A program made the position numbers and the translations under genes. The notes beneath the pieces were generated by a model. That model ran no database searches, was not told the DNA's origin, and saw nothing but the letters and a program-made list of their open reading frames with translations. This document shows positions 1,991 through 25,662 of a DNA stretch of 32,348 bases, piece after piece; position 1 is the stretch's first letter, and every line of letters begins with the position of its first letter. The DNA is from Frankiales bacterium (GTDB taxonomy: Bacteria; Actinomycetota; Actinomycetes; Mycobacteriales; SCTD01), in the NCBI GenBank assembly GCA_025965475.1, contig JAOPWV010000086.1:1-32348 (forward strand), written 5' to 3'.

Positions 1991-3409
1991 CTACAGCGGG
2001 GGTGCCAGCTGGGCGAGGCCCTCGATGGCGGCGGCGAAGCACTCGGCCGGCGGGGTGACCAGGCCGGCACCGACCTGGCCGGTGCCCGCGACCTTGCCGG
2101 CCATGCCGGTGTTGATCTGGGGCAGGATCCCGGTCCGGACGACCTTCGTGACGTCGATGCCGGTCGGCGCTCCGCGGAACTCCAGGATCGGGATCTGGTA
2201 GGCGCGGCTCTCGGCGAGCGTGATCTCGTACATACGCCGGGTCGTGGCGAGCGCGTCCGGCACGGCCCCGCCGACGAACCGCACGATGGCCGGCGCCGCG
2301 GCCATCGAGAAGCCGCCGATGCCACCGGTCTCGGTGATGGCCGAGTCGCCGATGTCGGGATTGGCGTCGTCCGGGCCGTACGACCCGAGGAACAGCCCGT
2401 CGGCGAGCTGCGCCGGACCGGTGAACCAGGTGTCGCCGGTGCCGGCGGTCTGGATGCCGAAGTCGGTGCCGTTGCGGGCCATCGTCACGACCATCGTCGA
2501 GCCCGGGATGTCGCGGGCCGCGTCCGTGGCCAGCTTGCACGCGGGCATGTCGAGGTTCAGGAAGAAGTGGTCGTTGCCCGAGACGAAGCGCACGCACTCG
2601 GCGACCTGGGACGACGGCACGTCCAGTTCGATGAGGTCCGGCAGGATCTCGCGCAGGAACATCAGCGTGCCGGCCCGGTTGCGGTTGTGGCCCTCGTCGC
2701 CCATCTGCAGCATCTGCGCGATGATCGCCTTGATGTCGATCGCGCCGTGCTTGCGCACCGCCTGGCCCAGCAGGGGACCCACGACGTCGGACATGAAGCG
2801 CAGCCGCTCGATGACCTCGGACGAGTAGGCGCCGTACCGCAGGACCTTGCCCAGGCCCTCGTTGATCGAGCACCAGGCCCGGCCGCCGTGCTCGGTGTCC
2901 TCCAGCTCGAACATCCACATCGACGGGGTGACGACGCCCGCCATCGGGCCGACCGTCCGGTGGTGGTGGCACGGGTCGAGGGTGATCCCGTCGCCCTTCT
3001 CGAGCAGCCGTTCCGCCTCCTCCGGGGTGTCGGCCAGGCCCTCGAGCAGCATCCCGCCGATGAGCGCGCCGCGCAGCGGGCCGGAGGTCCGGTCCCACGC
3101 GATCGGCGGCCCGGCGTGGAAGAACGTGCCCTTCTCGATGCCCAGCACCTCATGGGCCGGACGTACGTCGACGAGCTGCGCGGTGGCCGACAGCAGCCGC
3201 TCGACCGCCTTCGCGTTGGCCTCGTTGCGGCGCGGGTCGGCCATGACCCGGGCGAGGGCGGTCTCGGTGCCGTCGGCCGGCGGCCGCCAGTCGACCTGTT
3301 CGACGGGTGCGGCCTGCGCGCTGAGGGCGTCGGCGAACAGGGCGGCGCCCGCGGTGACGACGCGGGGGTCGGCGGAGAGCAGACCGGAGAGGGGGGCGGT
3401 GTCGGTCAC
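1991..3409 (-). CDS. allG: AllG-like DUF1116 protein, carbamoyltransferase subunit
   Basis: A 472-residue member of the DUF1116 family (YlbE/AllG and YahG in E. coli). AllF, AllG and AllH together form oxamate carbamoyltransferase, which splits oxalurate with phosphate into oxamate and carbamoyl phosphate. Visible conserved blocks are FHAGPPI (97-103), CHHHRTVGPMAG (147-158) and Gly-rich segments near the C-terminus (TGGIGGFSMAAAPA). There are no membrane segments or signal peptide, so it is cytoplasmic. The GTG start at 3409 has GGAGG about 7 bases upstream and overlaps the allF stop by 4 bases (GTGA), so the two are probably translationally coupled. The frame stays open further upstream, but that part lies over allF and reads as low-quality Arg-rich sequence. 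In this window the natural substrate may be ureidomalonate rather than oxalurate (inference). Confidence 0.88.
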   Translation of the reverse strand: MTDTAPLSGLLSADPRVVTAGAALFADALSAQAAPVEQVDWRPPADGTETALARVMADPRRNEANAKAVERLLSATAQLVDVRPAHEVLGIEKGTFFHAGPPIAWDRTSGPLRGALIGGMLLEGLADTPEEAERLLEKGDGITLDPCHHHRTVGPMAGVVTPSMWMFELEDTEHGGRAWCSINEGLGKVLRYGAYSSEVIERLRFMSDVVGPLLGQAVRKHGAIDIKAIIAQMLQMGDEGHNRNRAGTLMFLREILPDLIELDVPSSQVAECVRFVSGNDHFFLNLDMPACKLATDAARDIPGSTMVVTMARNGTDFGIQTAGTGDTWFTGPAQLADGLFLGSYGPDDANPDIGDSAITETGGIGGFSMAAAPAIVRFVGGAVPDALATTRRMYEITLAESRAYQIPILEFRGAPTGIDVTKVVRTGILPQINTGMAGKVAGTGQVGAGLVTPPAECFAAAIEGLAQLAPPL

Positions 3410-4905
3410 GCGGTCGCCTCCTGGCGGACGAGGGAGACCGCGTGCCTGGCGGCGGCGGCGTTGGACAGGAACACGGAGGCACCGGCGTCGAGGAGGGTGG
3501 CTGCCTGCCGGTCGAGCCCCTGCGGGTCGCTGCGGGTTCCGCAGAGCGACACGACGACGGCCAGATCGCGGCCGGCGGCAGTGGCGGTGGAGCGGGCACT
3601 GCGGATGGCGGCGGCAAGTCCGGTTGCCGGGTCCTCGTGGGCGCCGTACCCGAGGACGACGTCCATCAGGACGACGCCGACGGACGCGTCGGCGGCCTCC
3701 TGGGCCAGCCGCTCCAGTCGGAGGGACGGGTCGATCATCGGGTGTGGGCGGCCCTCGGTGAGCCGGTCGTCGCCGAAGTCGATCATGACGTGGCCGCCGG
3801 CCCGCAGGTCGTCGGGCAGGGCCCACTCGGGACGCAGCGGGATGTTCGACGCGATCGGGCCGAGGGCGCTGGCGGCCAGCACCATCGCCTCGTCGCACAG
3901 CGTGCCGCCGCTGAACAGGCCGCGCAGCGCACCTGCCCGCGGTGTCTGCTCCTCGGTGGAGGGCCAGGTCGGCCAGGTGGGGACCTGGCCGTCGACGGCG
4001 CGTACGGCCTCTTCGGTGACCGCGGTCAGGTCGGGCCGACCCTGGCCGAGCAGGGCGAACTGGACCGGCGTCGTGAGCTTCTCGGCGAACGCCCGGACCT
4101 CGTCCGCGACGTCGGCCGCCGGTGGCTTGGACACGACGACGATCAGGTCGGTGCCCGGGTCCGCGTCCAGGGCGGCGAGCGCCTGCCGGGTCGAACGGCC
4201 GCCGACCGCGGAGGACAGGTCGCGCCCGCCGACGCCGAGGCAGTGGCTCACGCCGACGCCGGCGGCGTCGAGCAGGCACATGAGTTCCTGGGCGCCGGTC
4301 CCGGACGCGGCGACGAGGCCGACCCGGCCCGGGCTGACGACGTTGGCGAAACCGAGCCCGAGCCCGCCCAGCGCCGCCGTGCCGCAGTCGGGGCCCATGA
4401 CGAGCAGGTTGCGGTCGGCGGCGGCGTCCTTGAGCAGGATCTCCTGCTCCACCGGCACGTTGTCGCTGAAGATCATGACGGACAGGCCCGAGTCCAGCGC
4501 ATCCATCGCCTCGGTGAAGGCGTGCCGGCCCGGGACCGAGATGACGGCCAGGTTCGCCTCGATGCGGGCCGCGGCGGTGCGGGTCGTCCGCGCGGGGGCC
4601 TCGTCGCCGAAGCCGCCCGAGCCGGGCCGCTGAGCGGAGAGGGCGACCAGCGCCGCCTCCATCGCGCGGACGGCGGCGTCCACCGCCGCCTCGTCGTCGG
4701 CGCGCAGGGCGATCAGCAGGTCGTTCGGGCCGGCGTCGCCCGGACCCGTCAGGCCCATCCCCGCGAGCAGCTCCAGGTTCAGCTCGGTGGCCATCGCCAC
4801 GAGCGCCACCTGTACGCCGGGGGAGTCCTGCACTGCCCGGCTCACCTGCATGAGGCTCACCGAGTCGCGGTAGGCGCCCCGTCGGACCTCGACGTGGTCG
4901 GTCAC
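3406..4905 (-). CDS. allF: AllF/FdrA-like acyl-CoA synthetase-fold carbamoyltransferase subunit
   Basis: A 499-residue FdrA-family protein, related in fold to succinyl-CoA synthetase but serving as a subunit of the AllFGH oxamate carbamoyltransferase. Visible signatures are GPDCGTA (171-177), GLGFANVVSPG (183-193), ASGTGAQE (200-207) and GVGGRDL (224-230), all in the order typical of FdrA. The second half (about 240-490) is the ligase-like domain. The GTG start at 4905 is preceded by AAGGAG at a 6-base gap. That site lies inside the last codons of allH, and the stop and start overlap by 4 bases. Its length is slightly below the E. coli protein. It was historically named as a suppressor of dominant-negative FtsH mutations; the metabolic role is the one that fits here, given the DUF1116, DUF2877 and carbamate kinase genes in the same window. 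Confidence 0.9.
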   Translation of the reverse strand: MTDHVEVRRGAYRDSVSLMQVSRAVQDSPGVQVALVAMATELNLELLAGMGLTGPGDAGPNDLLIALRADDEAAVDAAVRAMEAALVALSAQRPGSGGFGDEAPARTTRTAAARIEANLAVISVPGRHAFTEAMDALDSGLSVMIFSDNVPVEQEILLKDAAADRNLLVMGPDCGTAALGGLGLGFANVVSPGRVGLVAASGTGAQELMCLLDAAGVGVSHCLGVGGRDLSSAVGGRSTRQALAALDADPGTDLIVVVSKPPAADVADEVRAFAEKLTTPVQFALLGQGRPDLTAVTEEAVRAVDGQVPTWPTWPSTEEQTPRAGALRGLFSGGTLCDEAMVLAASALGPIASNIPLRPEWALPDDLRAGGHVMIDFGDDRLTEGRPHPMIDPSLRLERLAQEAADASVGVVLMDVVLGYGAHEDPATGLAAAIRSARSTATAAGRDLAVVVSLCGTRSDPQGLDRQAATLLDAGASVFLSNAAAARHAVSLVRQEATA

Positions 4906-5849
4906 CTGTGCTCCTTAGGGGCGGGGTTGCCGCCGATCGTGTGCCGGCCCAGCGAACTGTGGGCCATCAGTGCGTGGGCGCCCGCGAGCAGGCCGCGGGC
5001 GGTGTCGTGGCCGGACGAGTGCCCGACGGAGAGCAGTTCCCGCAGAGCGGGGGCCGGTGCGCGGATCCCGGCGAGGGCCTCGGTGACGGCCATGACCGGG
5101 TCCGCCGCCTCCCCGCGTCCGGCGTGCGCGAGCAGCGCGGCGGACAGCGCGGTGGTCCGGGTGGTGGCGCGCCCGGCGACGTACCGCCCGAGCCGGGCCG
5201 CCTGTGCGGTCACGACATGGGTCCCGGGCAGCCCGGCCAGCTGGTCGCAGGCGACGAGCACGCCGGCGAGGACGTCGTCGCCGGCCGGGGTCAGGCCGCG
5301 GCCGAGACCGAGCAGCGCGTCCGCGGCGGCCTCGGTGGCCGGGGCGTCCAGGGCGATGAGCGCGTCCCGCAGCCGGCCGGCGGCACTGGCCACCGGGGCG
5401 TCGAGCCGGAGGGGCTGGGCGTCGAGCAGGCGCTCCAGTTCGTGCACGGCCGGTGCCGTGCGCTCCGGCTCGAGCGGGACGTGGATCCGGCGGGGGCTCC
5501 AGGAGCGCACCGCGCGGTACCGCACCGCGCCGATGTGCAGGCAGTCCTCGCCGGTCCAGGCTGCGTCGCCGGCCGAGTGAGGAGCGAAGGGTGCCTGCGT
5601 GCTGGCCGCGGCGATCACCAGGGCGTTGGGCATGCGTACGCCGTCGCGGGCCACCACGGCCGCCACCGTGGCCTCGCGACCGCCGCCCGAGAGGGCGACG
5701 TACACCGCGGTGGGGAACACGGCCAGGACCTCGCCGGCGGCCCCGCTGTCGAGCAGCCCGCGCAACGCGATGCTGGCCGCCGCCGGATGCTCAGCGGCTC
5801 CCCGGACACCCGGGCGCGGCGGCGCTGCGGGTTCGATGAGCGTCGGCAT
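4902..5849 (-). CDS. allH: AllH-like DUF2877 protein, carbamoyltransferase subunit
   Basis: A 315-residue DUF2877 protein (YlbF/AllH in E. coli), the third component of the AllFGH carbamoyltransferase. The diagnostic motif GLGRGLTPAGDD sits at residues 181-192, with the C-terminal SVGHSSGHDTARGLLAGAHA block also present. It is the first gene of the minus-strand allH-allF-allG operon. The ATG at 5849 has no Shine-Dalgarno sequence. Instead a TAGCGT element lies 6 bases upstream of the ATG (5861-5856, minus strand), which is the geometry of a leaderless actinobacterial mRNA. The first 20 residues are Pro/Ala-rich and may be a poorly conserved extension. Divergent from a PucR regulator only 35 bases away, so it is probably controlled by it. 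Confidence 0.85.
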   Translation of the reverse strand: MPTLIEPAAPPRPGVRGAAEHPAAASIALRGLLDSGAAGEVLAVFPTAVYVALSGGGREATVAAVVARDGVRMPNALVIAAASTQAPFAPHSAGDAAWTGEDCLHIGAVRYRAVRSWSPRRIHVPLEPERTAPAVHELERLLDAQPLRLDAPVASAAGRLRDALIALDAPATEAAADALLGLGRGLTPAGDDVLAGVLVACDQLAGLPGTHVVTAQAARLGRYVAGRATTRTTALSAALLAHAGRGEAADPVMAVTEALAGIRAPAPALRELLSVGHSSGHDTARGLLAGAHALMAHSSLGRHTIGGNPAPKEHR

Positions 5850-5884: not shown

Positions 5885-7645
5885 ATGGGCAAACTTGCCA
5901 ACGATCCGGCCGTTCCTTCGGCGGAGTTGCCTGTGCAACGTACGACGGAGGCGCAGGCCTTCCCGGACGGGATCGGGGCGGCGCCGGAGTCGTCCGGCGG
6001 CCGCAGCACGGGGACCTTGACGTACGGACTGCCGCTCGGTGAGGTGCTCGGGGCCTCCACCCTGCGCGGCGCGCGGGTGCTTGCCGGCGCAGGCGGGCTC
6101 GGCCGGGTCGTGCAGCGGCTGAACGTCATGGAGGTGCCCGACATCCTGCCGTGGGTCAAGCCGCACGAGCTGCTGTTGACCACGGGCTACCCGCTGCGCA
6201 ACACCCCCGGCGACCTGTCCGGCCTGGTGCTGGAGCTCGACCGGCGCGGGCTCGCCGGTCTGGCCATCAAGCTCGGCCGGTACCTCGACGTGCTGCCGCA
6301 GGAGATGCTCGACGAGGCGGACCGGCTGGGTTTCCCGATCGTCCAGCTGCCCGCGGGCGTCGGCTTCGACGACATCCTCAACCAGGTGCTCACGGATGTG
6401 CTCAACCGGCAGGCCGCCCTGCTGGCCAGGTCGGAGGAGGTCCACCGGGTCCTGGTCCAGATCGTGCTGGCCGGCGGCGGCCTGCAGGAGGTCACCGACG
6501 AACTCGTCGGCATCCTCGGCGGGGTCGTGCTGGCCACGACGCCGGACGGCCGCGTGCTCGCCGTGTCCGGCGAGCCCGAGGCGGTGGCGGGCGTGCTCGA
6601 AGGGGAGCACTTCGACGAGAGCGGCCGGTTCCGGGTGGAGCGCTCGCCCGAGGGGATCCGGACGGACCCGGCCGGCAGCCACGCCGTGGTGCCGATCGTC
6701 GCCGGTGGCGTGCATCACGGCAGGATCGCCGCCTTCTCGACCGACCTGATGGATGCCAGCGACGTGCATGCCCTGGAACGGGCCGCCACCGTGGCCGCGC
6801 TCGTCGTGACCAAGGCGCTCGCCGTCAGCGCCGTGGAGAGCAAGTACCAGGGCGACTTCATGCACGACCTGATCAACGGCCGGGCCGGCAGCGTCGAGCA
6901 CACCGTGCCGCACAGCGCCTCCCTCGGCTGGGACATCGACCGCCCGCTGATCGTCGTGGTGGCAGAGATCGACGGCGCCGAGCCGGCCGCCACGCCGTCG
7001 TCGCTGCAGGCGGTGCGGCCGGTGCAGGACCGGTTCGCCGCGGCCTGGTCGTCGGTCGTGCACGGCCGGGACGGCAAGGCCGCGGTGGTCGGGTTCGCCC
7101 AGGAGGTGGTCGCGCTCATCGGCGTCCCCGCCCACGGGGACGTCGACCGGTTCGTGCGTGATGTGGTGAGCCACGTCTCCGGTGACGGTGGTGGTGGTCG
7201 GCGCTCGTTCTCCACCGGGGTCAGCCGGGTGATCGCGTCGCCGCAGGCGCTGCCCGAGGCCTACGAGCAGGCCCGCAAGGCCGTGCACGTCGGCCGGCAG
7301 ATGCACGGCGCCGGCGCGGTCGCGCACTTCGACGGGCTCGGCGTCTTCCGGCTCCTCAGCCTCATCCCCGACAGCACCGAGCTGCAACAGTTCGTCAACG
7401 AGACGCTCGGGGAGCTGGCGGCGCGGGACGACGCCACGAACATCGACCTGCGCCGCACGCTGCAGGTGCTGCTCGAGACCAACCTGAACGTCGCGGAGAC
7501 GGCACGCAGCCTGCATTTCCACTACAACACGCTGCGGTACCGGATCGGCAAGCTGGAGCGGATGCTCGGCCCGTTCACCACCGATCCCACCCTCCGGCTG
7601 AACCTGGCCCTGGCCCTCCAGGTGATCCAGATGCGGGGCATCTGA
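5885..7645 (+). CDS. PucR-family transcriptional regulator (first copy)
   Basis: A 586-residue regulator. From about residue 50 it matches the N-terminal PucR purine-catabolism domain (LPLGEVLGASTLRGARVL, then NVMEVPDILPWVKPHELLLTTG). A central linker/GGDEF-like region follows. The C-terminus is a PucR-type helix-turn-helix at about 530-562 (NVAETARSLHFHYNTLRYRIGKLE), typically an activator of nucleobase or ureide catabolic operons. The first 45 residues are not part of the usual domain, so the start is uncertain: ATG 5885 (leaderless, TACCGT 6 bases upstream) or TTG 6017, immediately before the domain. Divergent from allHFG and upstream of the uracil permease, it is the likely regulator of both. 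Its ligand is unknown. Confidence 0.88.
   Translation: MGKLANDPAVPSAELPVQRTTEAQAFPDGIGAAPESSGGRSTGTLTYGLPLGEVLGASTLRGARVLAGAGGLGRVVQRLNVMEVPDILPWVKPHELLLTTGYPLRNTPGDLSGLVLELDRRGLAGLAIKLGRYLDVLPQEMLDEADRLGFPIVQLPAGVGFDDILNQVLTDVLNRQAALLARSEEVHRVLVQIVLAGGGLQEVTDELVGILGGVVLATTPDGRVLAVSGEPEAVAGVLEGEHFDESGRFRVERSPEGIRTDPAGSHAVVPIVAGGVHHGRIAAFSTDLMDASDVHALERAATVAALVVTKALAVSAVESKYQGDFMHDLINGRAGSVEHTVPHSASLGWDIDRPLIVVVAEIDGAEPAATPSSLQAVRPVQDRFAAAWSSVVHGRDGKAAVVGFAQEVVALIGVPAHGDVDRFVRDVVSHVSGDGGGGRRSFSTGVSRVIASPQALPEAYEQARKAVHVGRQMHGAGAVAHFDGLGVFRLLSLIPDSTELQQFVNETLGELAARDDATNIDLRRTLQVLLETNLNVAETARSLHFHYNTLRYRIGKLERMLGPFTTDPTLRLNLALALQVIQMRGI
5888..5899. promoter_or_regulatory. Small palindrome at the start of the first PucR gene
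   Basis: GGCAA-AC-TTGCC forms a perfect 5+2+5 inverted repeat directly after the ATG at 5885. A second GTTGC-N4-GCAAC repeat follows at 5926-5939. Both lie in the non-conserved N-terminal extension, so they may be operator DNA for autoregulation rather than chance coding sequence. Short palindromes also occur by chance in GC-rich DNA. Confidence 0.25.
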
Positions 7646-7861: not shown

Positions 7862-9325
7862 ATGTCGCTTGGTCTCGGTTGGAAGCTTCACGGAGACGGG
7901 AAGACCCCGCCTCCCGGCGAGGTGGTGCGTCCTGACGAGCGGCTCTCGTGGGGTCGCACCGCCGGTCTCGGCGCGCAGCACATCGTGGCGATGTTCGGCG
8001 CCACCTTCGTCTTCCCGCTGATCATGGGCCTCAGCCCGCAGCTCGCGATCATGATGAGCGGTATCGCGACCGTCCTGTTCCTGCTGATGGTGAAGGGGAA
8101 GGTCCCGAGCTACCTCGGCACCAGCGCGTCCTTCGTCGGCGGTGTCGCGGCGATCCGCGCGCAGGGCGGCACCAGCGCTCAGGTCACCGGCGCCATCCTC
8201 GTCGCCGCCGTCGTGCTGGCCATCGTCGGTGTGATCATCCACTTCGCCGGCTCCCGGGTGATCTACGCCGTGCTCCCGCCGGCCGTCACCGGCGCCGTCG
8301 TCATGCTCATCGGGTTCAACCTCGCCCCCGTCGTCGCCAACGTCTACTGGCCGCAGGACCAGTGGGTCGCGCTGATCGTGATGTTCGCCGTCATCTGCAT
8401 GAGCCTCGGCCTGCGTGGCTTCCTGGGCCGCATCTCGATCTTCCTCGGCCTCATCTTCGGCTACCTCCTGTCGTGGATCTTCGACGGGATCTTCGGCCAC
8501 ATCAGCTCGTTCAGCCCGGGCGTTGGCAAGATCACCGAGCACGCGCGGGTCGACTGGGCGGGGGTCAAGGCGGCCGACTGGCTCGGCTTCCCGCCGCACA
8601 CCGGCACCCTGGGTCCCGACGGCCATCCCCTGGTCGGCTGGCACACCCCCGACATCAAGCTCGCCTTCGTGCTGCTGGTGCTGCCCGCCGTCATCGCCCT
8701 GGTCGCCGAGAACACCGGCCACGTCAAGGCGGTCGCCGAGATGACCGGGACCAACCTCGACGACGTCATGGGCCGCGCGATCGCCGCCGACGGCATCGCC
8801 ACCGTGGTCACCAGCGCCGTCGGTGGTTCGCCGACCACGACCTACGCCGAGAACATCGGGGTCATGGCCGCGACCCGCGTCTACTCCACGGCGGCGTATT
8901 TCGTCGCCGCGGTCGTCGCGATCCTGTTCGGCCTGTCGCCGAAGTTCGGCGCCCTGATCTCGGCCACCCCGGGCGGTGTGCTCGGCGGCATCACCGTCGT
9001 CCTGTACGGCATGATCGGCCTGCTCGGGGCGAAGATCTGGAAGGAGAACGGGGTCGACTTCGGTAACCCCGTGAACCTCGTCCCGGTCGCCGCCGGCATC
9101 ATCATCGCCATCGGCGGGACGGCGCTGAAGATCACCGACAGCTTCGAGCTCAGCGGTATCGCGCTCGGCACGATCGTCACGATCGTCGGCTGGCACCTCG
9201 CCCGCCTGCTGGCTCCGCCGCACCTCAGCGAGGCAGCGGCCGCTGAGGGTCCGGTCGTCACGACGCCGGGCGTCTACAGGGAGCCCAGCCCGTACGACGA
9301 GGACGTCAAGCCGGTCGTCCGCTAG
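7862..9325 (+). CDS. Uracil permease, NCS2/UraA type
   Basis: A 487-residue NCS2 (nucleobase:cation symporter 2) membrane protein with about 14 hydrophobic segments. The substrate-site helices are recognisable: VAENTGHVKA (281-290), and GGSPTTTYAENIGVMAATRV (321-340) resembling the UraA GGxPxTTYxENIGVMAxTRVYS block. Glu283 and Glu330 plausibly correspond to the two uracil-binding glutamates of E. coli UraA. The AENIGVMA form favours uracil or related pyrimidines over the xanthine/urate subgroup. The ATG at 7862 is preceded by GGAGGGG. The C-terminal 30 residues are a hydrophilic cytoplasmic tail. The gene stands alone between its own promoter region and terminator, next to PucR and the Mo hydroxylase, as expected for nucleobase uptake. 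Confidence 0.88.
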   Translation: MSLGLGWKLHGDGKTPPPGEVVRPDERLSWGRTAGLGAQHIVAMFGATFVFPLIMGLSPQLAIMMSGIATVLFLLMVKGKVPSYLGTSASFVGGVAAIRAQGGTSAQVTGAILVAAVVLAIVGVIIHFAGSRVIYAVLPPAVTGAVVMLIGFNLAPVVANVYWPQDQWVALIVMFAVICMSLGLRGFLGRISIFLGLIFGYLLSWIFDGIFGHISSFSPGVGKITEHARVDWAGVKAADWLGFPPHTGTLGPDGHPLVGWHTPDIKLAFVLLVLPAVIALVAENTGHVKAVAEMTGTNLDDVMGRAIAADGIATVVTSAVGGSPTTTYAENIGVMAATRVYSTAAYFVAAVVAILFGLSPKFGALISATPGGVLGGITVVLYGMIGLLGAKIWKENGVDFGNPVNLVPVAAGIIIAIGGTALKITDSFELSGIALGTIVTIVGWHLARLLAPPHLSEAAAAEGPVVTTPGVYREPSPYDEDVKPVVR

Positions 9326-9493: not shown

Positions 9494-10377
9494 ATGAAGC
9501 CGGCACCGTTCACGTACCACGCGCCGACGACGCTGGCCGAGGCTCTCGACGCGCTGGACCGGGTCGGCGAGGACGGCAAGGTCCTGGCCGGCGGGCAGAG
9601 CCTGATCCCGATGCTGAACATGCGCCTCGCCTCGCCCGCGCACCTGGTCGACATCAACGGGGTGGCCGGCCTCGGCACCGTCGACGTCGACGCGACCGGT
9701 GTCCGCATCGGAGCGCTCGCCCGGCACGCGCAGGTGGCCGGCCACGACGCGGCGCACTCCGTCGTACCGCTGCTCCGGCAGGCCCTGCAGCTCGTCGCCC
9801 ACCCGGTGATCCGCAACCGCGGGACGACGGTCGGCAGCCTCGCGCACGCCGACCCGTCCGGCGAGATGACGGCCGTGCTCAGCCTGCTCGGCGGGAGCAT
9901 GGACCTGGCCCGCAAGGGGGCCGCCCGCACGGTCCCCGCCGCCGAGTTCTTCGTGGGCCCGCTGGAGTCCTGCCTGGAGCCGGGCGAGATGGCCGTCTCG
10001 GCCTGGTTCCCGGTCCCGCCGCCGCGGACGGGTACGACGTTCCGCGAGGTGGCCCGCCGGCACGGCGACTACGCCATGTGCGGGGTCGCCGCCGCCGTCA
10101 CCCTCGACGCCGACCAGCGGGTGCTCAGCGCCCGCACGTCGTACATCTCGATGACGGCCACGCCCCTCGTCCTCGACCTGACCGAGGCCGTCGCCGGCAA
10201 GCCCTTCGACGCCGCCGACTGGGCTGCCGCCGGGCAGCTGTCGGCCGATCAGCTCGACCCCGAGCCCGACATCCACGCCACCGCGGACTACCGGCGCCAT
10301 CTCGGCGTCGTACTCACCCGCCAGGCGCTCACCGACGCCGCGACCGTTGCGGCAGCTCAGCCTCAGGGAGCAACACG

Positions 10378-10381
<4 letters not shown>
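9494..10381 (+). CDS. Molybdenum hydroxylase FAD-binding subunit (CoxM/XdhB type)
   Basis: A 295-residue medium subunit of a xanthine oxidase-family hydroxylase. It carries the FAD and passes electrons from the iron-sulphur subunit. The two FAD motifs are visible: AGGQSLIPMLNMRL (32-45) and TVGSLAHADPSGE (112-124). The N-terminal KPAPFTYHAPTTLAEALDAL is typical of the family. It is the first gene of a 4-base-overlapping trio with the small and large subunits. A purine-rich stretch (GGCAGGA, 9480-9486) precedes the ATG. The 118 bases upstream, after the permease terminator, must contain the operon promoter, but I see no convincing -35/-10 pair. With cytosine deaminase and barbiturase nearby, the likely reaction is hydroxylation of uracil to barbiturate (and thymine to 5-methylbarbiturate). 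The substrate is inferred. Confidence 0.88.
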
Positions 10382-10898
<517 letters not shown>

Positions 10899-10902
<4 letters not shown>

Positions 10903-13358
10903 CCACCAAGCAGTTCGGTGCGCCGGTCCAGCGCACCGAGGACGTGCGCCTGCTCAAGGGCAACGGGCGCTACCTCGACGACCTCGGCCAGGACGCGCTC
11001 GCCGCCGCCTTCGTGCGCAGCCCGCACGCGCATGCCCGCATCGTCGACATCGACGTGACCGACGCGCTCGAGGTCGAGGGTCTGGTCGCCATCTACACGC
11101 ACGAGGACCTGCCGGGCCGCGTGGGGGAGCCGCTGCCGCTGCTCATCCCGCACCCGGCGATCGTCGCGGGCCGCACCGGCTACGCGCTCGCCAAGGACAG
11201 GGTGAACCATGTCGGCGAGCCGATCGTCATGGTCGTCGCGTCCGACCGGTACGTCGCCGAGGACGTCTGCGGCCGGATCACGGTCACGTACGAGGTGCTG
11301 CCGCCGGTCGTCGGGGTCGAGACCGCCCGCGACGCGAAGCACCTGGTGCACGAGGACGTGGCGGGCAACGTGGCCGGCCACCTGGTCCAGGAGGTGGGCG
11401 ACGCGCCGGCCGCCGTCGACAGCGCGCCGCACACGCTGGAGCTCGACCTCAAGGTCGAGCGCAGCGCCTGCATCCCCATGGAGGGCCGCGGCGTCTACGC
11501 CCGCTGGGACGCGGACGACGAGAGCCTGCGCATCTACACCTCGACGCAGACGACGACCGGCGTGCGGGCGGCGGTGGCCACGAAGCTCGATCTGCCGCTC
11601 AACCGGGTGGAGTGCATCGCCCCGGACGTCGGCGGCGGGTTCGGCGTCAAGATCATGCATCCGTGGCCGGAGGAGGTCCTCGTCCCCTGGGCGGCGCGGC
11701 TGCTCGACCGCGAGATCAAGTGGACAGAGGACCGCCGGGAGCACTTCGTCTCCTCCGCGCACGAGCGCGGCCAGGTGCAGAAGGTGCGGGTCGGCTTCGA
11801 CGACGAGGGCCGGGTACTCGGCCTCGACGTGAAGATCTGGCACGACAACGGCGCCTACGTCCCGTACGGCCTCATCGTCCCGATCATCACCTCGACCCAG
11901 CTGCTCGGCCCGTACAAGCCGGGTGCGTACAAGGTCGAGTTCTGGAGCCTCTACACGAACACGGTCATTGTCACGCCGTACCGCGGCGCCGGCCGTCCCC
12001 AGGGCGTCTACGCCATGGAACGCACGATGGACGCGATCGCGGACTACCTGGGCAAGGACCGGGTGGCGGTCCGTGAGGCGAACTTCATCCAGCCGGACGA
12101 GATGCCCTACGACCACCACATGATCTTCCAGGACGGGCGCCCGCTGATCTACGACTCGGGCGACTTCCCGGGGTCGATGGACAAGCTCAAGGCGCTGGTC
12201 GGCTGGCAGGACTTCGAGGACTACCGCGAGCAGGCCCGCGCCGAGGGGCGCCGGGTGGGCATCGGGGTCGCCTGCTACGTCGAGGGCACCGGTGTCGGCC
12301 CGTACGAGGGCGGCCACGTCGTGGTCGAGTCCACCGGCAAGGTCGTCGTCTCGACCGGGCTGACCTCGCAGGGCCAGGGGCACGAGACGGTGTTCGCACA
12401 GATCGTCGCCGACGAGCTGGGCGTGCCGCTGGAGGACATCAAGGTCACCACCGGCGACACCCGCAAGATGGGCTACTCGGTGGGCACCTTCGCCTCGCGG
12501 GCCGCGGTGATGAGCGGCAACGCGATCGGCATCGCCGCCCGCAACGTCCGGACCAAGGCGCTGCGGATCGCCGGCGAGGCGCTCGAGGTCGACCCGGGTG
12601 ACCTCGAGATCGTCGACGGCATCGTGCGCGTCAAGGGCAGCCCGACGTCGTCGATGCCCCTCGGCACCGTCGCCGTGTTGTCGAACCCGCTGCGCTACGC
12701 GTTCGACACCGCGTCCCAGGCGGCCACCCAGTTCGTCGTCGGCGACCCGGACAAGCCGCCGGTCGCCGAGGACGACGAGCCCGGCCTGGAGGACCGCGAC
12801 TTCTACTCGCCGGCCCAGTCGACGTACGCCAACGGCATGCACGCCGTCATCGTCGAGACCGACCCGGAGACCGCCGAGATCAAGATCCTGCGGTACTGCG
12901 TCGTGCACGACTGCGGCAACATCATCAACCCGATGATCGTCGAGGGCCAGATCCACGGCGGCGTCGCGCAGGGCGTCGGCGGCGCGCTGTACGAGCGCAT
13001 GGAGTACGACGAGAACGGCCAGCTGCTCAACGCGTCGTTCATGGACTTCCTCATGCCGTACGTCACCGAGGTGCCCGACCGGATCGAGATCGACCACCTC
13101 GAGACGCCCTCGCCGCTGAACCCGCTCGGTATCAAGGGGGCCGGCGAGGCCGGCGTCATCCCGTCCGCCGCGGTGTTCGCCTCGGCGATCGAGGACGCCG
13201 AGGGCTTCACGATCACGTCCATGCCCATCTCGCCCAGCGAGCTGTACGCCCTGCGCCAGCGGTTCGCCGCCGGCGAGATCCCGGCGCTGCGCGGCCGGTC
13301 CGCCACTGCCAGCACTGCCACCACCCCCACCCCGGTCACGGAGGCCACCACCCGATGA
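10899..13358 (+). CDS. Molybdenum hydroxylase catalytic large subunit (CoxL/XdhA type), candidate uracil dehydrogenase
   Basis: An 819-residue molybdopterin-binding subunit. Visible landmarks are the a/b hammerhead start (FGAPVQRTEDVRLLKGNGRYLDD), GGGFGVK (245-251, cofactor loop), the active-site loop TPYRGAGRPQ (359-368) and the C-terminal GIKGAGEAG with the expected catalytic Glu750. The loop is the YRGAGR type found in many aldehyde/heterocycle hydroxylases. It lacks the Cys-containing AYxCSFR of genuine aerobic CO dehydrogenase, so CO oxidation is unlikely. The ATG at 10899 overlaps the small-subunit stop (ATGA). Context (UraA, cytosine deaminase, barbiturase) points to a uracil/thymine-oxidising enzyme. 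Hydroxylation of another N-heterocycle such as hydantoin is an alternative. Confidence 0.88.
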
Positions 13359-14011
13359 AGATCGCCGGCAACGCAACGCTGCAGGCCACCCCGGAGCGCG
13401 TCTACGCGGCGCTGAACGACCCGGCCGTGCTCGTGCGCACGATCCCCGGGTGCCAGCAGCTCGAGCCGGTCGGCCAGGACTCCTACAAGATGACGATCAC
13501 CGCCGGGGTGGCCTCCATCAAGGGCGTCTACCAGGGCGAGGTCGCGCTGTCCGACCAGCAGGCGCCCGACTCGTTCCGGCTCAAGGCGTCCGGTGCCGGC
13601 GCGCCCGGCACCGTCAGCGCCGACGTCCTGGTGAAGCTCACCGATGCCGGCAACGGCACCACCCGGCTCGAGTACGACGCGGACGCCGTCGTCGGCGGCA
13701 TGGTCGGAGGTGTCGGCCAGCGCATGCTGACCGGCGTCGCGAAGAAGACCGCCGGCGAGTTCTTCAAGGCCGTCGACGGTGTGCTCACCGGCGCCCCGCC
13801 CGCGCCTGCCAAGGCCACCGCCAACGGCCAGGGCGCCCCGGCCGCGGCCGCCCAGCCCGGTGCCGCTGCTGCCCCGGCCACCTTCACCGCCCCGTCCGCG
13901 CCCGCCCTGGCGGGGGCCGTGTCAGGCGACTTCGCCAAGGGCGCCGTCTTCGGCGCCGTGATCGCACTGCTGGGCGCCCTCGTCGGCGGCCTGCTCGCCC
14001 GGCGCCGCTAG
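13355..14011 (+). CDS. CoxG-like SRPBCC protein with C-terminal membrane anchor
   Basis: A 218-residue protein whose first 145 residues are the CoxG/SRPBCC fold (MKIAGNATLQATPERVYAALNDPAVLVRTIPGC start, then YKMTITAGVASIKGVYQG). An Ala/Pro-rich linker follows, then one hydrophobic helix ending in a positive stop (VFGAVIALLGALVGGLLARRR). In CO dehydrogenase systems CoxG anchors the enzyme to the membrane, and homologues accompany many Mo hydroxylases. A role in tethering or electron delivery to the respiratory chain is the likely one here. It overlaps the large-subunit stop by 4 bases. No XdhC/CoxF-type or CoxD-type maturation gene follows, unlike many cox/xdh operons. Confidence 0.85.
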   Translation: MKIAGNATLQATPERVYAALNDPAVLVRTIPGCQQLEPVGQDSYKMTITAGVASIKGVYQGEVALSDQQAPDSFRLKASGAGAPGTVSADVLVKLTDAGNGTTRLEYDADAVVGGMVGGVGQRMLTGVAKKTAGEFFKAVDGVLTGAPPAPAKATANGQGAPAAAAQPGAAAAPATFTAPSAPALAGAVSGDFAKGAVFGAVIALLGALVGGLLARRR

Positions 14012-14058: not shown

Positions 14059-15024
14059 ATGCGCACCTTCACCGCAGCCGCCATCCAGATCGCGCCCGTC
14101 GCCGGCCCGCTGACCCCGGAGGCGGTCAAGGCGAACTGCCAGAAGGCGGTCGAGTGGGTCGAGCGCTGCGTCGAGGCCACCGGCGCCGAGCTGGTGGTGC
14201 TGCCGGAGAGCGCCTCGACGGGGTTCACGCCGGCCTGCCCGCCGGAGCAGCTGTGGGACCTCATGAGCGAGATCCCGGGACCGGTGACGGAGCCGCTCCA
14301 GGAGGTGGCCCGCCGGCTCGGCGTGCACGTCGTGTGGGGGACCTACGAGCGCGGCCCGGAGCGCGGAGTCGTCTACAACGCCTCGGTCCTCATCGGTCCT
14401 GGCGGCGACGTGCTCGGCGTCTACCGCAAGACCCACCCGTTCGGCAGTGAGATGGCATCGCGCGGCGGCTGGGTCACGCCGGGCGACCAGGTCTGCGTCG
14501 TGGACACCGACCTGGGCCGCATCGGCATGATCATCTGCTTCGACGGCGACTACCCGGAGCTGTCCCGCATCCAGGCGGTGCAGGGTGCGGAGATCATCGT
14601 CCGGCCGTCCGCCCTGCTGCGCTCGGCCGACATCTGGGAGCTCACGACCCGGGCCCGCGCGTACGACAACCACGTCTATTTCGTCGCCGCGAACGCGACG
14701 GGCATCGACCCGGGCGGCGTCCTCTACTTCGGCAACTCCATGATCGTGACGCCCACCGCGGAGGTCGTCGCGCGCGCGGCCAGCCACGAGTCGTGGGTGT
14801 CGGCCGTCCTGGACCCCGACCGCGCGATGGCGTCCCTGACGCCCGGGTCGAGCGTGCCGCAGGTCTTCGACCACCTCGCCGAGCGCAACCTGGACCTGAT
14901 CCGCCGCTACCGCGAGGACCTCGAGGGACCGGCCACGACGTCGTTCCCGCACGGCGGCAAGGCGGCCGGGGCCGTCCGCGGCGCGGCGGCCAAGGCCTCC
15001 GAGGCCGGCGAGATCGTCGACTGA
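14059..15024 (+). CDS. Nitrilase-superfamily amidohydrolase, candidate malonamate or carbamoyl amidase
   Basis: A 321-residue carbon-nitrogen hydrolase with the complete Glu-Lys-Cys triad: Glu50 (VVLPES), Lys124 (YRKTHPF) and Cys160 (IICFDGDYPE). The family hydrolyses amides, nitriles or N-carbamoyl groups in the cytoplasm. I chose ATG 14059, preceded by GAGAGG (14044-14049) and directly followed by the typical RTFTAAAIQIAPV first strand. It lies 47 bases after the CoxG-like gene, so it is probably in the Mo hydroxylase operon. In the proposed pathway it could hydrolyse malonamate to malonate and ammonia. Direct hydrolysis of ureidomalonate is an alternative. In the classical pathway a different amidase-signature type enzyme does that step. 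Family certain, substrate inferred. Confidence 0.87.
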   Translation: MRTFTAAAIQIAPVAGPLTPEAVKANCQKAVEWVERCVEATGAELVVLPESASTGFTPACPPEQLWDLMSEIPGPVTEPLQEVARRLGVHVVWGTYERGPERGVVYNASVLIGPGGDVLGVYRKTHPFGSEMASRGGWVTPGDQVCVVDTDLGRIGMIICFDGDYPELSRIQAVQGAEIIVRPSALLRSADIWELTTRARAYDNHVYFVAANATGIDPGGVLYFGNSMIVTPTAEVVARAASHESWVSAVLDPDRAMASLTPGSSVPQVFDHLAERNLDLIRRYREDLEGPATTSFPHGGKAAGAVRGAAAKASEAGEIVD

Positions 15025-15184: not shown

Positions 15185-17305
15185 ATGGCATCCGCGCCGC
15201 CCACCCCCCGCCGGATCCGCATCGGGATCGACACCGGTGGCACCTTCACCGACGTCGTCGCCCTGGACGAGGAGACCGGCGAGCTGGTCACCACGAAGAC
15301 GCCGTCCACGCCGTCGAACCCGGCGGACGGCTTCATGAACGGCATCGACAAGGTGCTCGACCTGCTCGGCGCGAGCGGTGCGGACGTCGCCGCCGTCAGC
15401 CACGGCACCACGGTCGCCACCAACCAGCTGCTCGAGGGCAAGCTGGACCGGATCGGCTTCGTCAGCACCGAGGGCTACGAGTTCGTCCTCGAGATCGCCC
15501 GCCAGTCGGTGCCGGACGGCTACGGCAACTCGTACTTCTGGGTGAAGCCGGACCGCATCGTCCCGGCCGACCTGGTCAAGACGGTCGGCGGCCGCATGGA
15601 CTTCCGCGGCAACGAGATCCGGCCCTTCGACGAGGAGCAGGCCGTCCGGGTCGCGCGCTGGTTCCGCGACCGGGGCGTCACCACCCTCGGCGTCTGCTTC
15701 CTGCACTCGTACGCCAACCCGGGCCACGAGCAGCGGATGCTCGCGGTGCTCCGGCGCGAGCACCCGGACGCCGTCGTGTCGATCTCCTCCGACGTCCTGC
15801 GCGAGTACCGGGAGTACGAGCGCAGTGTGACCACCCTCGTCGACGCGGCCGTGAAGCCGAAGGTCTCCCGCTACATCACCGGGATCAAGGACCGGCTCGA
15901 CGCATTCACCACCGCCGGCGAGCAGACCGCCCGGCGGGTGCCCTTCTACATCATGAAGTCGAACGGTGGTGTGCTCTCCGCCGAGGAGGTCGTCCACCAG
16001 CCGATCACGACGGTCCTGTCCGGTCCGGCGGCCGGCGCCCTCGGCGCCGCCCTCATCGCGATGCGGGCCGGCTTCGACCGGCTGCTCACCTGCGACGGCG
16101 GCGGTACGTCGACCGACGTCTCGGTCGTCCTCGCCGGCGAGCCGACGCTGACCACCGAGGGCAGCGTCGGGCAGTTCCCGTCCAAGATCCCGATGATCGA
16201 CGTCGTGACGGTCGGCGCCGGCGGCGGCTCCATCGCGTGGGTCTCCCCGGAAGGCACCCTGAAGGTCGGCCCCAGGTCGGCCGGCGCCGACCCGGGTCCG
16301 CTCTGCTACGCCAAGGGCGGCACCGAGCCGACGATCACCGACGCGCACGTCCTGCTCGGCCGGATCCCTCCGCACCTGCTCGGCGGCGAGATCCCGCTCG
16401 ACATCGAGGCCGCCCGTGCCGGCCTCGAGAAGCTGGCCGGCACCCTCGGCCTCGAGCTCGAGGCGCTGGCCACCGGCATCCTGGAGATCTCGGCCTGGAA
16501 CCAGGCGAACGCGCTGCGCCAGATCACCGTCAAGCGCGGTCTCGACGTCCGCAGCTTCATGATGGCGACCTTCGGCGGCTCCGGCTCGCTGCTGCTCTGC
16601 CGGCTCATCGACATCCTCGGCCTGCAGGGCGTCATCGTGCCGCCGAACCCGGGCAACGTCTCGGCGTTCGGCCTGCTGACCGTCGACGTGAAGAACGACT
16701 ACGTGCAGACCTCCGTCAGCCGGCACCGCGACCTCGACACGGACGCGGTCGCCGCGACCTTCGAGGCGCTGCAGACCCGGGCCACCGCGGCGCTCGACGC
16801 CGAGGGCTTTCCGGCCGAACAGCACCGCTTCGTCCGCACCGCCGACCTGCGCTACTTCGGGCAGGCCTTCGAGGTCCGCGTGCCGGTGGCGGACGGCCCG
16901 GTGGACAAGGCACTGGCCGACGGCGTCGCCGAGGCGTTCCACAGCGCCCACGAGCAGCTGTACGGCTACTGCTTCCGGGGCGACGAGCGGCAGCAGGTCG
17001 AGTGGGTCAATCTGCGCGTCTCCGGGATCGGCCCCATCCGCCGGCCCGAGATCCGTGAGATCGCGGGCCGCGACGGTGACGTCGAGCGGGCCCGCACCGG
17101 CACCCGCCGGGTGTTCTTCGAGGACCACCGGGAGACGCCGATCTACTGGCGGCCCGACCTCGCGGCCGGGGACGTCCTGACCGGCCCGGCGATCATCGAG
17201 GAGTTCGGCTCCACGATCCCGCTCCACCCCGGCTTCAGCGCCCGCGTGGACGCCTTCGGCAATGTCATCGTCACCCGCAGCAGCGACTCGGAGGCCGCCA
17301 AGTGA
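15185..17305 (+). CDS. hyuA: Hydantoinase/oxoprolinase subunit A (HyuA family)
   Basis: A 706-residue HyuA-type protein of the hydantoinase/5-oxoprolinase/acetone carboxylase superfamily. The ATP-binding actin-like motifs are present: DTGGTFTDV (16-24) and CDGGGTSTDV (303-312). So are VSHGTTVATNQLLEGK and MKSNGGVLSAEE. In characterised members this subunit phosphorylates or activates the substrate while subunit B completes hydrolysis or carboxylation. The ATG at 15185 has AGGAG (15171-15175) upstream. It overlaps hyuB as GTGA, so the two are coupled. Substrates of relatives include N-methylhydantoin, 5-oxoproline, caprolactam and acetone. Here a cyclic ureide or imide is likely, but sequence does not decide between them. 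Confidence 0.87.
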   Translation: MASAPPTPRRIRIGIDTGGTFTDVVALDEETGELVTTKTPSTPSNPADGFMNGIDKVLDLLGASGADVAAVSHGTTVATNQLLEGKLDRIGFVSTEGYEFVLEIARQSVPDGYGNSYFWVKPDRIVPADLVKTVGGRMDFRGNEIRPFDEEQAVRVARWFRDRGVTTLGVCFLHSYANPGHEQRMLAVLRREHPDAVVSISSDVLREYREYERSVTTLVDAAVKPKVSRYITGIKDRLDAFTTAGEQTARRVPFYIMKSNGGVLSAEEVVHQPITTVLSGPAAGALGAALIAMRAGFDRLLTCDGGGTSTDVSVVLAGEPTLTTEGSVGQFPSKIPMIDVVTVGAGGGSIAWVSPEGTLKVGPRSAGADPGPLCYAKGGTEPTITDAHVLLGRIPPHLLGGEIPLDIEAARAGLEKLAGTLGLELEALATGILEISAWNQANALRQITVKRGLDVRSFMMATFGGSGSLLLCRLIDILGLQGVIVPPNPGNVSAFGLLTVDVKNDYVQTSVSRHRDLDTDAVAATFEALQTRATAALDAEGFPAEQHRFVRTADLRYFGQAFEVRVPVADGPVDKALADGVAEAFHSAHEQLYGYCFRGDERQQVEWVNLRVSGIGPIRRPEIREIAGRDGDVERARTGTRRVFFEDHRETPIYWRPDLAAGDVLTGPAIIEEFGSTIPLHPGFSARVDAFGNVIVTRSSDSEAAK

Positions 17306-19176
17306 GCAGCACCAGCAACGCCCTGAAGGGGGTCGACCCGGTCGTCCTCGAGATCGTCGAGGGCAGCCTGGCGGCGGTCGAGATGGAGGTCGAGACGGCC
17401 ATCGGCCGGACGTCCCGCTCACCGATGATCCGCGACGCCCACGACTTCCGGGCCGGCATCCACGACCGCAAGCTGCGCAAGCTCACCGGCCGCTCGTACT
17501 CCGCGCTCGTCCACCCGGTCGTGCGGGACTTCCCGATCGAGACGATGAAGCCCGGCGACGTCTTCTTCCACAACGACGTCTACCGGTCCGAGGGCGGCAT
17601 CGGCCACCTGCCCGACCTGTGCGTGACGGTGCCGGTCTTCTTCGACGGCGAGGTCGTGGCCTTCGTGCAGGCCTTCGGCCACCACGACGACATCGGCGGC
17701 GCCTGCCCCGGCTCCATGCCGAGCAAGGCGACCGAGATCTACCAGGAGGGCCTGATGGTCCCTCCGATCAAGCTGTGGGACCAGGGCGTCCCGAACCAGG
17801 CCGCCCTGACGATCATGACGCGCAACTCCCGGATGCCCGACTCGCTCGCTGCCGACCTCGACGCCGAGTGCTCGGCCTGCCTGATGGGGTCGCGCCGGCT
17901 GACCGAGCTGTTCGAGCGGTACGGCCGCGAGACCGTCGAGGCCTGTTTCGACGCGATCATCGACAAGACCACCGAGACCTACCGCCGCGAGATCCTCACC
18001 AAGATCCCCGACGGCGAGTACGTCTGGGAGGACTACGCCGAGCACGACGGCGTCGACGAGCCGCAGCTGCACACCCAGCGGATCACGCTGACCAAGACGC
18101 CGGACAAGATCATCATCGACTTCACCGGCACGTCCAAGCAGGCGAAGGGCCCGATCAACCACGCGGGCGACTACGCGGACGGCAACTTCCTCAAGAAGTG
18201 GCTGGCCCCGATCCTGCGCAACCTCGCGGACACCCCCGAGCGGATGGCCGAGCTCGACGTCAACGAGGGGATCGTGCCGCTCATCGAGATGCGGTTCCCG
18301 GAGAAGGGGACGCTGCTGACGCCGATCTTCCCGGCGCCGGTCAACGCCCGCACCTTCGTCATCCTGCGGCTGCTCGGCGTCCTGGCGGGTGTCCTCGCCA
18401 AGGCCGTCGACGGCCGCATGCCGGCCGACCAGGAGACGATCCGCTACACCGGCGTCTACGGCCACGACCTGAACGGCGACGACTACCTCATGCGCGAGGT
18501 GCTCGGCGGCGGCTCCGGCGGCCGGTACTACGCCGACGGCGAGGACACCATCCACGTCGTCCCCGACTCGCGGAACCTGCCGACCGAGTTCACCGAGTCC
18601 CGCTTCCCGTTCCTCGTCGAGCGGCTCGGCCTGGCCAAGGACTCCGGCGGCGCGGGGGAGTTCCGCGGCGGCCTCGGCTACGAGAAGCACATCCGCATGC
18701 TGCGCGACGGCTACTTCATGTCGATCGCGGACCGCTCGATCCTGGCCTGCTGGGGCGTCAAGGGCGGCAAGGCCGGCAAGTCGTTCCAGGTCGTCATCGA
18801 CGCGGGCGGCCCGAACGAGCGGGAGATGGAGGGCCTGGTCGACGACGAGTTCGTCCGCGCCGGCGAGGTCATCCGTATCCGGACGACCGGCGGCGGCGGC
18901 TGGGGTGACCCGCTCGACCGCAAGGTGGAGTCCGTCGTCCGCGACGTCGTCTGGGGCAAGGTGTCCTTCGAGGCGGCGCGTGACGACTACGGAGTCCTGC
19001 TGTCCGGTCCGCAGGAGGAGCCGGACCTCGACGCCGCGGCCACAGAGGAGCTGCGCGCCCGGCTGCGCGCCGAGCGGCCGGAGATGCCGTTCTTCGACCG
19101 GGGTCCCGGCTACGCCCTGCTGTCCGGCGGCAAGCAGTACGCCGACGTCGACTGGGTCGGCAGCCCGCCGGCCTGA
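17302..19176 (+). CDS. hyuB: Hydantoinase/oxoprolinase subunit B (HyuB family)
   Basis: A 624-residue HyuB-type partner of HyuA. Conserved metal-site-like blocks are FHNDVY (89-94) followed by GGIGHLPD, and GHHDDIGG (126-133), where hydantoinases often have HWADIGG. The C-terminal core ends in TGGGGWGDPLDRKVE, a family hallmark. It continues for about 85 residues beyond that point (a region rich in acidic residues ending VDWVGSPPA). The GTG start at 17302 overlaps the hyuA stop. Together the pair probably forms an ATP-dependent cyclic amidase or a carboxylase. The strand-closing terminator at 19189-19227 ends the unit. The pair may be functionally linked to the Mo hydroxylase operon just upstream. 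Confidence 0.87.
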   Translation: MSSTSNALKGVDPVVLEIVEGSLAAVEMEVETAIGRTSRSPMIRDAHDFRAGIHDRKLRKLTGRSYSALVHPVVRDFPIETMKPGDVFFHNDVYRSEGGIGHLPDLCVTVPVFFDGEVVAFVQAFGHHDDIGGACPGSMPSKATEIYQEGLMVPPIKLWDQGVPNQAALTIMTRNSRMPDSLAADLDAECSACLMGSRRLTELFERYGRETVEACFDAIIDKTTETYRREILTKIPDGEYVWEDYAEHDGVDEPQLHTQRITLTKTPDKIIIDFTGTSKQAKGPINHAGDYADGNFLKKWLAPILRNLADTPERMAELDVNEGIVPLIEMRFPEKGTLLTPIFPAPVNARTFVILRLLGVLAGVLAKAVDGRMPADQETIRYTGVYGHDLNGDDYLMREVLGGGSGGRYYADGEDTIHVVPDSRNLPTEFTESRFPFLVERLGLAKDSGGAGEFRGGLGYEKHIRMLRDGYFMSIADRSILACWGVKGGKAGKSFQVVIDAGGPNEREMEGLVDDEFVRAGEVIRIRTTGGGGWGDPLDRKVESVVRDVVWGKVSFEAARDDYGVLLSGPQEEPDLDAAATEELRARLRAERPEMPFFDRGPGYALLSGGKQYADVDWVGSPPA

Positions 19177-24769: not shown

Positions 24770-25662
24770 TCGACATCCTCGCGCTGATCGGCGCGATGCT
24801 CGTGGCGGCGACCCCGCTGATCTACGCGGCCACCGGCGAGGTGCTCACCGAGCGGGCCGGCATCCTCAACCTCGGCATCGAGGGCACGATGTACGCCGGT
24901 GCGTTCTCGGGCTTCCTCGTCGCGGCGAAGACCGGGTCGCCGTGGCTCGGCCTGGCGGCCGCGCTGGTCCTGGGCGTCGTGGCAGGTGCCCTGATGGGCC
25001 TGCTCGTCGTCACCCTCGGCGTCAACCAGCACGTCGCCGGCATCGGCACCACGCTGCTGCTCATCGGGGCCAGCGAGTTCACCAACCGCCTGCTGTACGG
25101 CGGCGGCGCCCTGGTCCAGATCGACAAGTTCGGGCTGCTGTTCCCCGACGTACCCGTGCTCGGTCAGTACGTCCTGACCTACGTCGCGCTGATCGTCGTC
25201 GTCCCGTTCGTGTGGTGGCTGCTGCGCGCCACCGGCTTCGGGCTGCGCGTCCGGGCCGTCGGGGAGAACCCCGAGGCGGCCGACGCGGCGGGCATCAGCG
25301 TGGCCCGGACCCGGTACGCCGCGCTCATGGGCGGCGGGGCCCTGATGGCGGCCGGCGGTGCCTTCCTCACGCTCGCCGTCGTCGGCACCTTCACGCTGAA
25401 CATCAGCAACGGCCGCGGCTGGGTGTGCATCGCCCTGGTCATCTTCGCCCGCTGGCGGGTCTGGCCCGCCGTCCTCGGTGCCCTGCTGTTCGCCGGGGTC
25501 GACGCGCTGCAGCTGCAGCTGGTCATCACGCCCGCGTTCTCCGGCATCCCGCGCGAGCTGATGCTCGCCCTGCCGTACCTCGTCGTCATCGCCGCGCTGG
25601 CCGCGTCCGGCCGCGGCCTCGTCTACCCCGGCGCCTACCTCAAGCCCTACCGCCGTGCCTGA
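24766..25662 (+). CDS. ABC importer permease 2 (BMP/nucleoside type)
   Basis: A 298-residue permease with the YufQ-type block VLTERAGILNLGIEGTMYAGA near residues 25-45 and about eight hydrophobic segments. I chose GTG 24766 because it overlaps the first permease stop as GTGA and has AGGAG (24754-24758) 7 bases ahead. Longer in-frame starts would run over the upstream gene. The C-terminus (RGLVYPGAYLKPYRRA) is typical. It completes the importer. The cytosine deaminase gene follows after 43 bases, so the importer and deaminase are probably cotranscribed. Confidence 0.9.
   Translation: MIDILALIGAMLVAATPLIYAATGEVLTERAGILNLGIEGTMYAGAFSGFLVAAKTGSPWLGLAAALVLGVVAGALMGLLVVTLGVNQHVAGIGTTLLLIGASEFTNRLLYGGGALVQIDKFGLLFPDVPVLGQYVLTYVALIVVVPFVWWLLRATGFGLRVRAVGENPEAADAAGISVARTRYAALMGGGALMAAGGAFLTLAVVGTFTLNISNGRGWVCIALVIFARWRVWPAVLGALLFAGVDALQLQLVITPAFSGIPRELMLALPYLVVIAALAASGRGLVYPGAYLKPYRRA

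Follow-up and report, generated by a model that had tools for sequence, protein, structure and literature searches.

The window, by which is meant the whole stretch of DNA analysed here (32,348 nucleotides), is the entire contig JAOPWV010000086.1 of a 3.9-Mb assembly that is 98% complete. Three genes on its minus strand are arranged in the order H-F-G with 4-base overlaps between neighbours: allH (4902-5849; 315 aa, DUF2877/YlbF), allF (3406-4905; 499 aa, FdrA) and allG (1991-3409; 472 aa, DUF1116/YlbE). The first-pass annotation had assigned 1991-5849 to AllFGH homologues; these coordinates coincide exactly with the three genes, and the Pfam families of all subunits were matched (AllH, PF11392, 3.5e-22; AllF, Ligase_CoA/CoA_binding PF00549/PF02629, 1e-37; AllG, PF06545, 2.6e-97). 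AllF also matches PRK06091 FdrA (7.8e-127), and solved relatives exist for AllF (3DMY) and AllG (3CLQ). Both allF and allG begin with GTG and are preceded by Shine-Dalgarno-like sequences (AGGAGG/AAGGAG), and third-position GC is 92-97% in all three genes. The AlphaFold model of AllH (pLDDT 84.5) gave no clear fold match when compared to solved structures, the best being a helical bundle (VIA Z 5.1).

In E. coli, AllFGH (fdrA-ylbE-ylbF) is the oxamic transcarbamylase, which interconverts oxalurate plus Pi and oxamate plus carbamoyl phosphate and works with carbamate kinase (PMC11326118, Kim and Kim 2024). The window likewise encodes three homologous subunits together, with a carbamate kinase on the same contig, and by homology its AllFGH belongs to this family.

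Gene neighbourhood of allHFG

The neighbouring genes discussed here, unless stated otherwise, are on the plus strand. A PucR-type regulator (5885-7645; weak PmfR/CdaR family matches) is divergent from allHFG and is followed by an NCS2 nucleobase permease (7862-9325), nearest to RutG/uracil permeases (TIGR03616 RutG, 2e-100, under the model cut-off), and by a three-subunit Mo-hydroxylase made up of an FAD subunit (9494-10381), a 2Fe-2S subunit (10378-10902) and a large subunit (10899-13358; NF040766). NCBIfam places the large subunit with aerobic CO dehydrogenase ('group 5'). The active-site motif of aerobic CO dehydrogenase is CSFR; this is absent from the window's protein, which has PYRGAGR, and the assignment was rejected. 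The enzyme is instead a candidate uracil/thymine dehydrogenase. Next are a CoxG-like protein (13355-14011; PF06240, 8.7e-24), a CN-hydrolase of the nitrilase family (14059-15024; PF00795, 3.6e-50) that is a candidate malonamate amidase, and HyuA (15185-17305; ATP-dependent hydantoinase/caprolactamase-like) and HyuB (17302-19176). A BMP-type ABC transporter lies between HyuAB and a yeast-type cytosine deaminase (25655-26158), the best PDB matches of which are fungal-type (1.7e-43; next family 2e-16). Further along are a class III CoA-transferase (27173-28360; PF02515, 8.8e-126), a candidate for malonate activation; a fused acyl-CoA carboxyltransferase AccD-AccA (28357-29859; PF01039/PF03255), a candidate for malonyl-CoA decarboxylation; a carbamate kinase (30005-30949; TIGR00746, 1.2e-101); and a ring-opening amidohydrolase (31014-32141).

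This last protein shares 81% identity over 368 residues with 5HWE, a structure deposited as barbiturase. In AtzD numbering, barbiturases carry N195, H321, K325, V345 and S/A346, whereas cyanuric acid hydrolases carry R195, T321, R325, G345 and G346 (Peat et al., PMC3758960). The window's protein carries N-H-K-V-A, i.e. all five barbiturase residues and none of the cyanurate set. By this signature it is a barbiturase, which contradicts the name of cyanuric acid amidohydrolase suggested by an NCBIfam model whose threshold it exceeds (473 over 360 bits). A second, distant ring-opening amidohydrolase is found elsewhere in the genome (G000:C118:5581-6648, L272; 200 bits).

Seventeen clusters with AllFG, from at least 10 families, were read. 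AllF, AllG, the Mo-hydroxylase (including its FAD and 2Fe-2S subunits), CoxG and barbiturase are present in all 17, the PucR-type regulator in 15, carbamate kinase in 13 within the stretches read, and HyuAB in most. No AllH was found in what was read of genomes G038, G059 and G050, and three genomes of family f16 (L035, L039, L041) have AllF and AllG with no recognisable AllH in the stretch read. The slot after CoxG is filled in 12 of the 17 clusters, by a CN-hydrolase in 7 and by an amidase-signature protein in 5. The two never occur together (chance about 0.04 by simple arithmetic), as would be expected if two unrelated amidases share one role. The amidase-signature protein was also considered as a malonamidase, but its PDB matches are generic amidase-signature enzymes, among which malonamidase E2 is not the nearest.

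Association of AllG with barbiturase

To place the cluster in a wider context, 395 genomes drawn from the window's class were searched for AllG and the ring-opener family. AllG was found in 89 and a ring opener in 83; 76 genomes had both, 13 only AllG, 7 only the opener and 299 neither, giving an odds ratio of 250 and a Fisher p of 8e-59, a value that is too small given shared ancestry, since the counts are not independent events. In the 48 genomes where both are on one contig, they are no more than 150 kb apart in 47, with a median of 30 kb. Among the seven genomes with an opener and no AllG, the openers of G043, G150, G156, G178 and G402 score below the barbiturase-signature proteins read, and the assembly of G073 is 72% complete. 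G262 is a real exception: it has a barbiturase, but the 60 kb read contain none of AllFGH, carbamate kinase, HyuAB and the CoA enzymes. It also has two urease matches, one of them about 34 kb from the barbiturase. G108, an assembly in about 430 pieces, has an opener of barbiturase-like score and a sole AllG that is of another type. Nine genomes from outside the class have a protein with the barbiturase signature, and AllG is present in every one of them. In the most compact of these loci the barbiturase, permease, carbamate kinase, AllH, AllF, AllG and Mo-hydroxylase are on one strand, with carbamate kinase adjoining AllH.

The first-pass annotation had asked whether barbiturase-linked DUF1116 proteins form a clade of their own, and in the tree they do. 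Among 170 AllG proteins from many phyla, 64 were counted as barbiturase-linked, from several Actinomycetota classes, and a single branch (98% SH-aLRT) sets all 64 apart, without an outsider among them. Eleven clade members were at first unlabelled; ten of these have a full-length ring-opener match in their genome and in one the gene is split over contig ends. The AllG of G164 was counted among the 64 though no ring opener was found in that genome, on the grounds that the genome is 80% complete and the contig 4.7 kb. The AllG of E. coli falls outside the clade, as do the plasmid and Firmicute types and further AllG proteins of actinobacteria. The AllF tree shows the same split, with 57 of 57 barbiturase-linked proteins together and one change.

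The clade of the window's class also differs from the near-invariant rest of the family at five AllG positions: M to A/T at 108, P to W at 165, N to D at 171, mostly E to R at 425, and H to G at 438. The window's own residues are T108, W165, D171, R425 and G438; E. coli AllG has M, E and H at 108, 425 and 438, as does most of the family. A/T108, R425 and G438 occur together in every barbiturase-linked AllG read over these positions. No other AllG has this combination, a few distant paralogues differing at one or two of the five positions. In held-out genomes from outside the class, positions 108, 425 and 438 are A, R and G in nine AllG proteins linked to barbiturase, whereas six from the same phylum without barbiturase carry M at the first, D or H at the second and H at the third. 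These same genomes led to W165 and D171 being discarded as barbiturase markers, as they proved specific to the window's class.

The AllG type follows the barbiturase and not HyuAB. G038 and G059 have a barbiturase and AllFG without HyuAB in the stretch read, and their AllG is of the A-R-G type; in G476, G571 and G591, AllFG lies next to HyuAB and a related Mo-hydroxylase, the AllG is M-H-H, and a genome-wide search found no ring opener. Two of the three changes replace a large side chain by a small one and would fit a longer substrate. AllF has few clade-specific changes at conserved sites, so that the shift in specificity, if real, probably lies in AllG. The M/E/H set, in turn, may be a mark of oxalurate use. 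Loci that pair AllFG with HyuAB and such a Mo-hydroxylase, and for which a ring opener was not found (L301, L303, L304), may hint at a further ring-opening route feeding AllFGH.

A proposed ureidomalonate route and its alternatives

Ureidomalonate (H2N-CO-NH-CO-CH2-COO-) has the terminal acylurea of oxalurate plus one CH2, and the window could encode a route that leads to it and beyond. The substrates, products and steps of the Mo-hydroxylase, AllFGH, the amidases and the CoA enzymes given here are predicted from gene content and sequence. Cytosine would be deaminated to uracil by the yeast-type cytosine deaminase, uracil would be oxidised to barbiturate by the three-subunit Mo-hydroxylase, and the ring of barbiturate would be opened by barbiturase to give ureidomalonate. 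AllFGH would then direct the attack of phosphate on the N-carbamoyl group of ureidomalonate, releasing carbamoyl phosphate and malonamate. Carbamate kinase would use the carbamoyl phosphate, with ADP, to make ATP, NH3 and CO2, while malonamate would be converted to malonate, probably by the CN-hydrolase or, in other genomes, by the amidase-signature enzyme in the same slot, malonamate hydrolysis being a guess at the role that the two share; malonate would pass to acetyl-CoA via the CoA-transferase and the carboxyltransferase. We consider it probable that AllFGH here is a ureidomalonate carbamoyltransferase of oxidative pyrimidine catabolism, with recovery of ATP.

Such an enzyme would be like that of E. 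coli in the class of its substrate, an N-carbamoyl amide with a distal carboxylate. Unlike the E. coli genes, those of the window are linked to barbiturase rather than to allantoin, belong to a separate clade, are in the order H-F-G and have the M to A/T, E to R and H to G changes in AllG; further, carbamate kinase is 24 kb from allHFG in the window, whereas it is adjacent in several other classes. With the oxidative pyrimidine pathway (uracil to barbiturate, barbiturase, ureidomalonase; Soong et al. 2001/2002, as cited in PMC3758960) the window shares a barbiturase and a candidate uracil-oxidising Mo-hydroxylase, which it has in one cluster. The known third step of that pathway is carried out by a hydrolytic ureidomalonase that forms malonate and urea (Soong 2001, cited in PMC3758960), which means that ureidomalonate can also be broken down by another route; the step proposed for the window is instead phosphorolytic and would allow ATP to be recovered.

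One alternative is that this is an ordinary oxamate/oxalurate AllFGH which lies near barbiturase only through PucR-type co-regulation of nitrogen salvage, with oxalurate being imported or made elsewhere. Each of the three subunits is a true homologue of its E. coli counterpart, the two substrates are one CH2 apart, and the cluster has purine-type regulators and permeases, all of which this reading would accommodate. However, the clade is coextensive with barbiturase and differs where E. coli agrees with nearly all other members. In addition, the earlier remark that the window has no allantoin enzyme is consistent with what was seen, AllD has no match genome-wide (in a search without its own positive control), and the single AllB-like protein of the genome, tried as an allantoinase, scores as a dihydroorotase. 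The genome-wide search for the allantoin route covered AllB and AllD. We regard this reading as unlikely.

Alternatively, the CN-hydrolase or amidase could itself be the hydrolytic ureidomalonase, and AllFGH could take what HyuAB makes, such as oxalurate from parabanate. The presence of one or other of two unrelated amidase families in most clusters, never both, would suit the first part, and the AllFG genes beside HyuAB in G476, G571 and G591 the second. Against this, the AllG residues track barbiturase, including in the two genomes where HyuAB is missing from the stretch read, and carbamate kinase accompanies AllFG in most clusters. Hydrolysis would also produce urea. Urease has no match in the window's genome, and among 28 barbiturase/AllFGH genomes tested it is lacking in this and 16 others, where a urea route would strand nitrogen; in 10 there is a clear urease and urea would be no dead end, so that the absence of urease is supportive only. 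This alternative, too, appears improbable. The notion that cyanuric acid is the substrate of the ring opener and carboxybiuret that of AllFGH, as proposed below for plasmid operons, would agree with the NCBIfam model match and with the AllFGH and carbamate kinase genes that adjoin cyanurate-type openers on plasmids, but the window's opener has N-H-K-V-A where the plasmid enzymes have R-T-R-G-G, and pyrimidines are what the cytosine deaminase, the Mo-hydroxylase and the RutG-like permease suggest; we think it very improbable.

The earlier proposal of a shift in substrate from oxalurate to ureidomalonate is thus supported, as a genomic reading, by the clade, the residues, the barbiturase and the allantoin route not being found. 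The AllFGH variant would be new by its substrate and pathway, within a known carbamoyltransferase family. A literature search, in which subscription journals were thinly covered, found no report linking AllFGH to barbiturase, and Barba 2013 (PMC4016543) mentions neither barbiturate nor FdrA.

Descriptions of the oxidative pyrimidine route go back to the 1950s. Its third step is given as hydrolysis to malonate and urea, and we know of no gene for that hydrolysis of ureidomalonate. If the ureidomalonate reading is true, most barbiturase-bearing Actinomycetota would bypass urea and, as allantoin fermenters do, save energy in the form of carbamoyl phosphate. Many DUF1116/FdrA/DUF2877 genes that are at present assigned to allantoin would gain a function, and there would be a candidate for uracil dehydrogenase. 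The reading would also help to account for AllFGHK sets where the allantoin pathway is lacking, as in the nitrifiers of PMC12625717.

The wider AllFGH family

Plasmids of Citrobacter, Klebsiella and relatives carry AllH-AllF-AllG-carbamate kinase with a permease and a cyanurate-type opener (R-T-R-G-G). There are dozens of such plasmids, from Citrobacter, Klebsiella, Enterobacter, Leclercia and Raoultella (e.g. L023, L050), of clinical and wet-room origin; speculatively, these operons possibly use residues of chlorinated isocyanurate disinfectants as a nitrogen source. The same gene set is found in Aminobacter SR38 and on a K. quasipneumoniae plasmid, which has allophanate hydrolase upstream of them. 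A cysteine hydrolase takes the place of the ring opener in E. coli plasmids and Peptoclostridium; for the E. coli plasmid protein the nearest solved structure is the triuret hydrolase TrtA, ahead of biuret hydrolase. Many E. coli plasmids have an AllG homologue; on the one that was read (L027) it is accompanied by AllH, AllF, carbamate kinase and a cysteine hydrolase of TrtA/BiuH-like type.

Carboxybiuret is the product of both cyanurate hydrolase and TrtA (PMC7948467). The next enzyme that they share, AllFGH, may therefore make carbamoyl phosphate and allophanate from carboxybiuret. The cyanurate and triuret pathways (AtzD, TrtA, TrtB, AtzF; PMC7948467) resemble that proposed for the window in having a ring opener of the same family and a next-step substrate of the form H2N-CO-NH-CO-X-COO-, in which X is NH there and CH2 in ureidomalonate; their known next steps are decarboxylation or deamination, in contrast to the carbamoyl transfer proposed here. 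Those comammox contigs that have AllFGHK but not the carboxybiuret decarboxylase TrtB were read by their authors as degrading oxalurate (PMC12625717); they would also fit a carboxybiuret role of AllFGH. We lean towards the view that AllFGH is a general phosphorolytic family for H2N-CO-NH-CO-X-COO-, acting on oxalurate (X = bond), ureidomalonate (CH2) and carboxybiuret (NH), a proposal that is less tested than that for the barbiturase-linked enzymes. Were it true, the breakdown of pyrimidines, triazines and triuret would all give ATP through carbamate kinase.

Other members of the family are in less familiar surroundings. In Clostridia, Spirochaetes, Elusimicrobia and others (L126-L187), AllFGH is often near distant xanthine-dehydrogenase-type enzymes and NCS2 permeases, in loci that are mostly without allantoin genes by the similarity used. 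The window's own genome has two further loci: at L028 (G000:C85, 79-9170) a divergent AllG adjoins a Mo-hydroxylase large subunit and a BMP/ABC transporter, and at L029 (G000:C143, 1032-13306) a distant AllF, a carbamate kinase and an AllG lie beside an MSMEG_0568-family radical SAM protein and XcbE-like and XcbC-like proteins.
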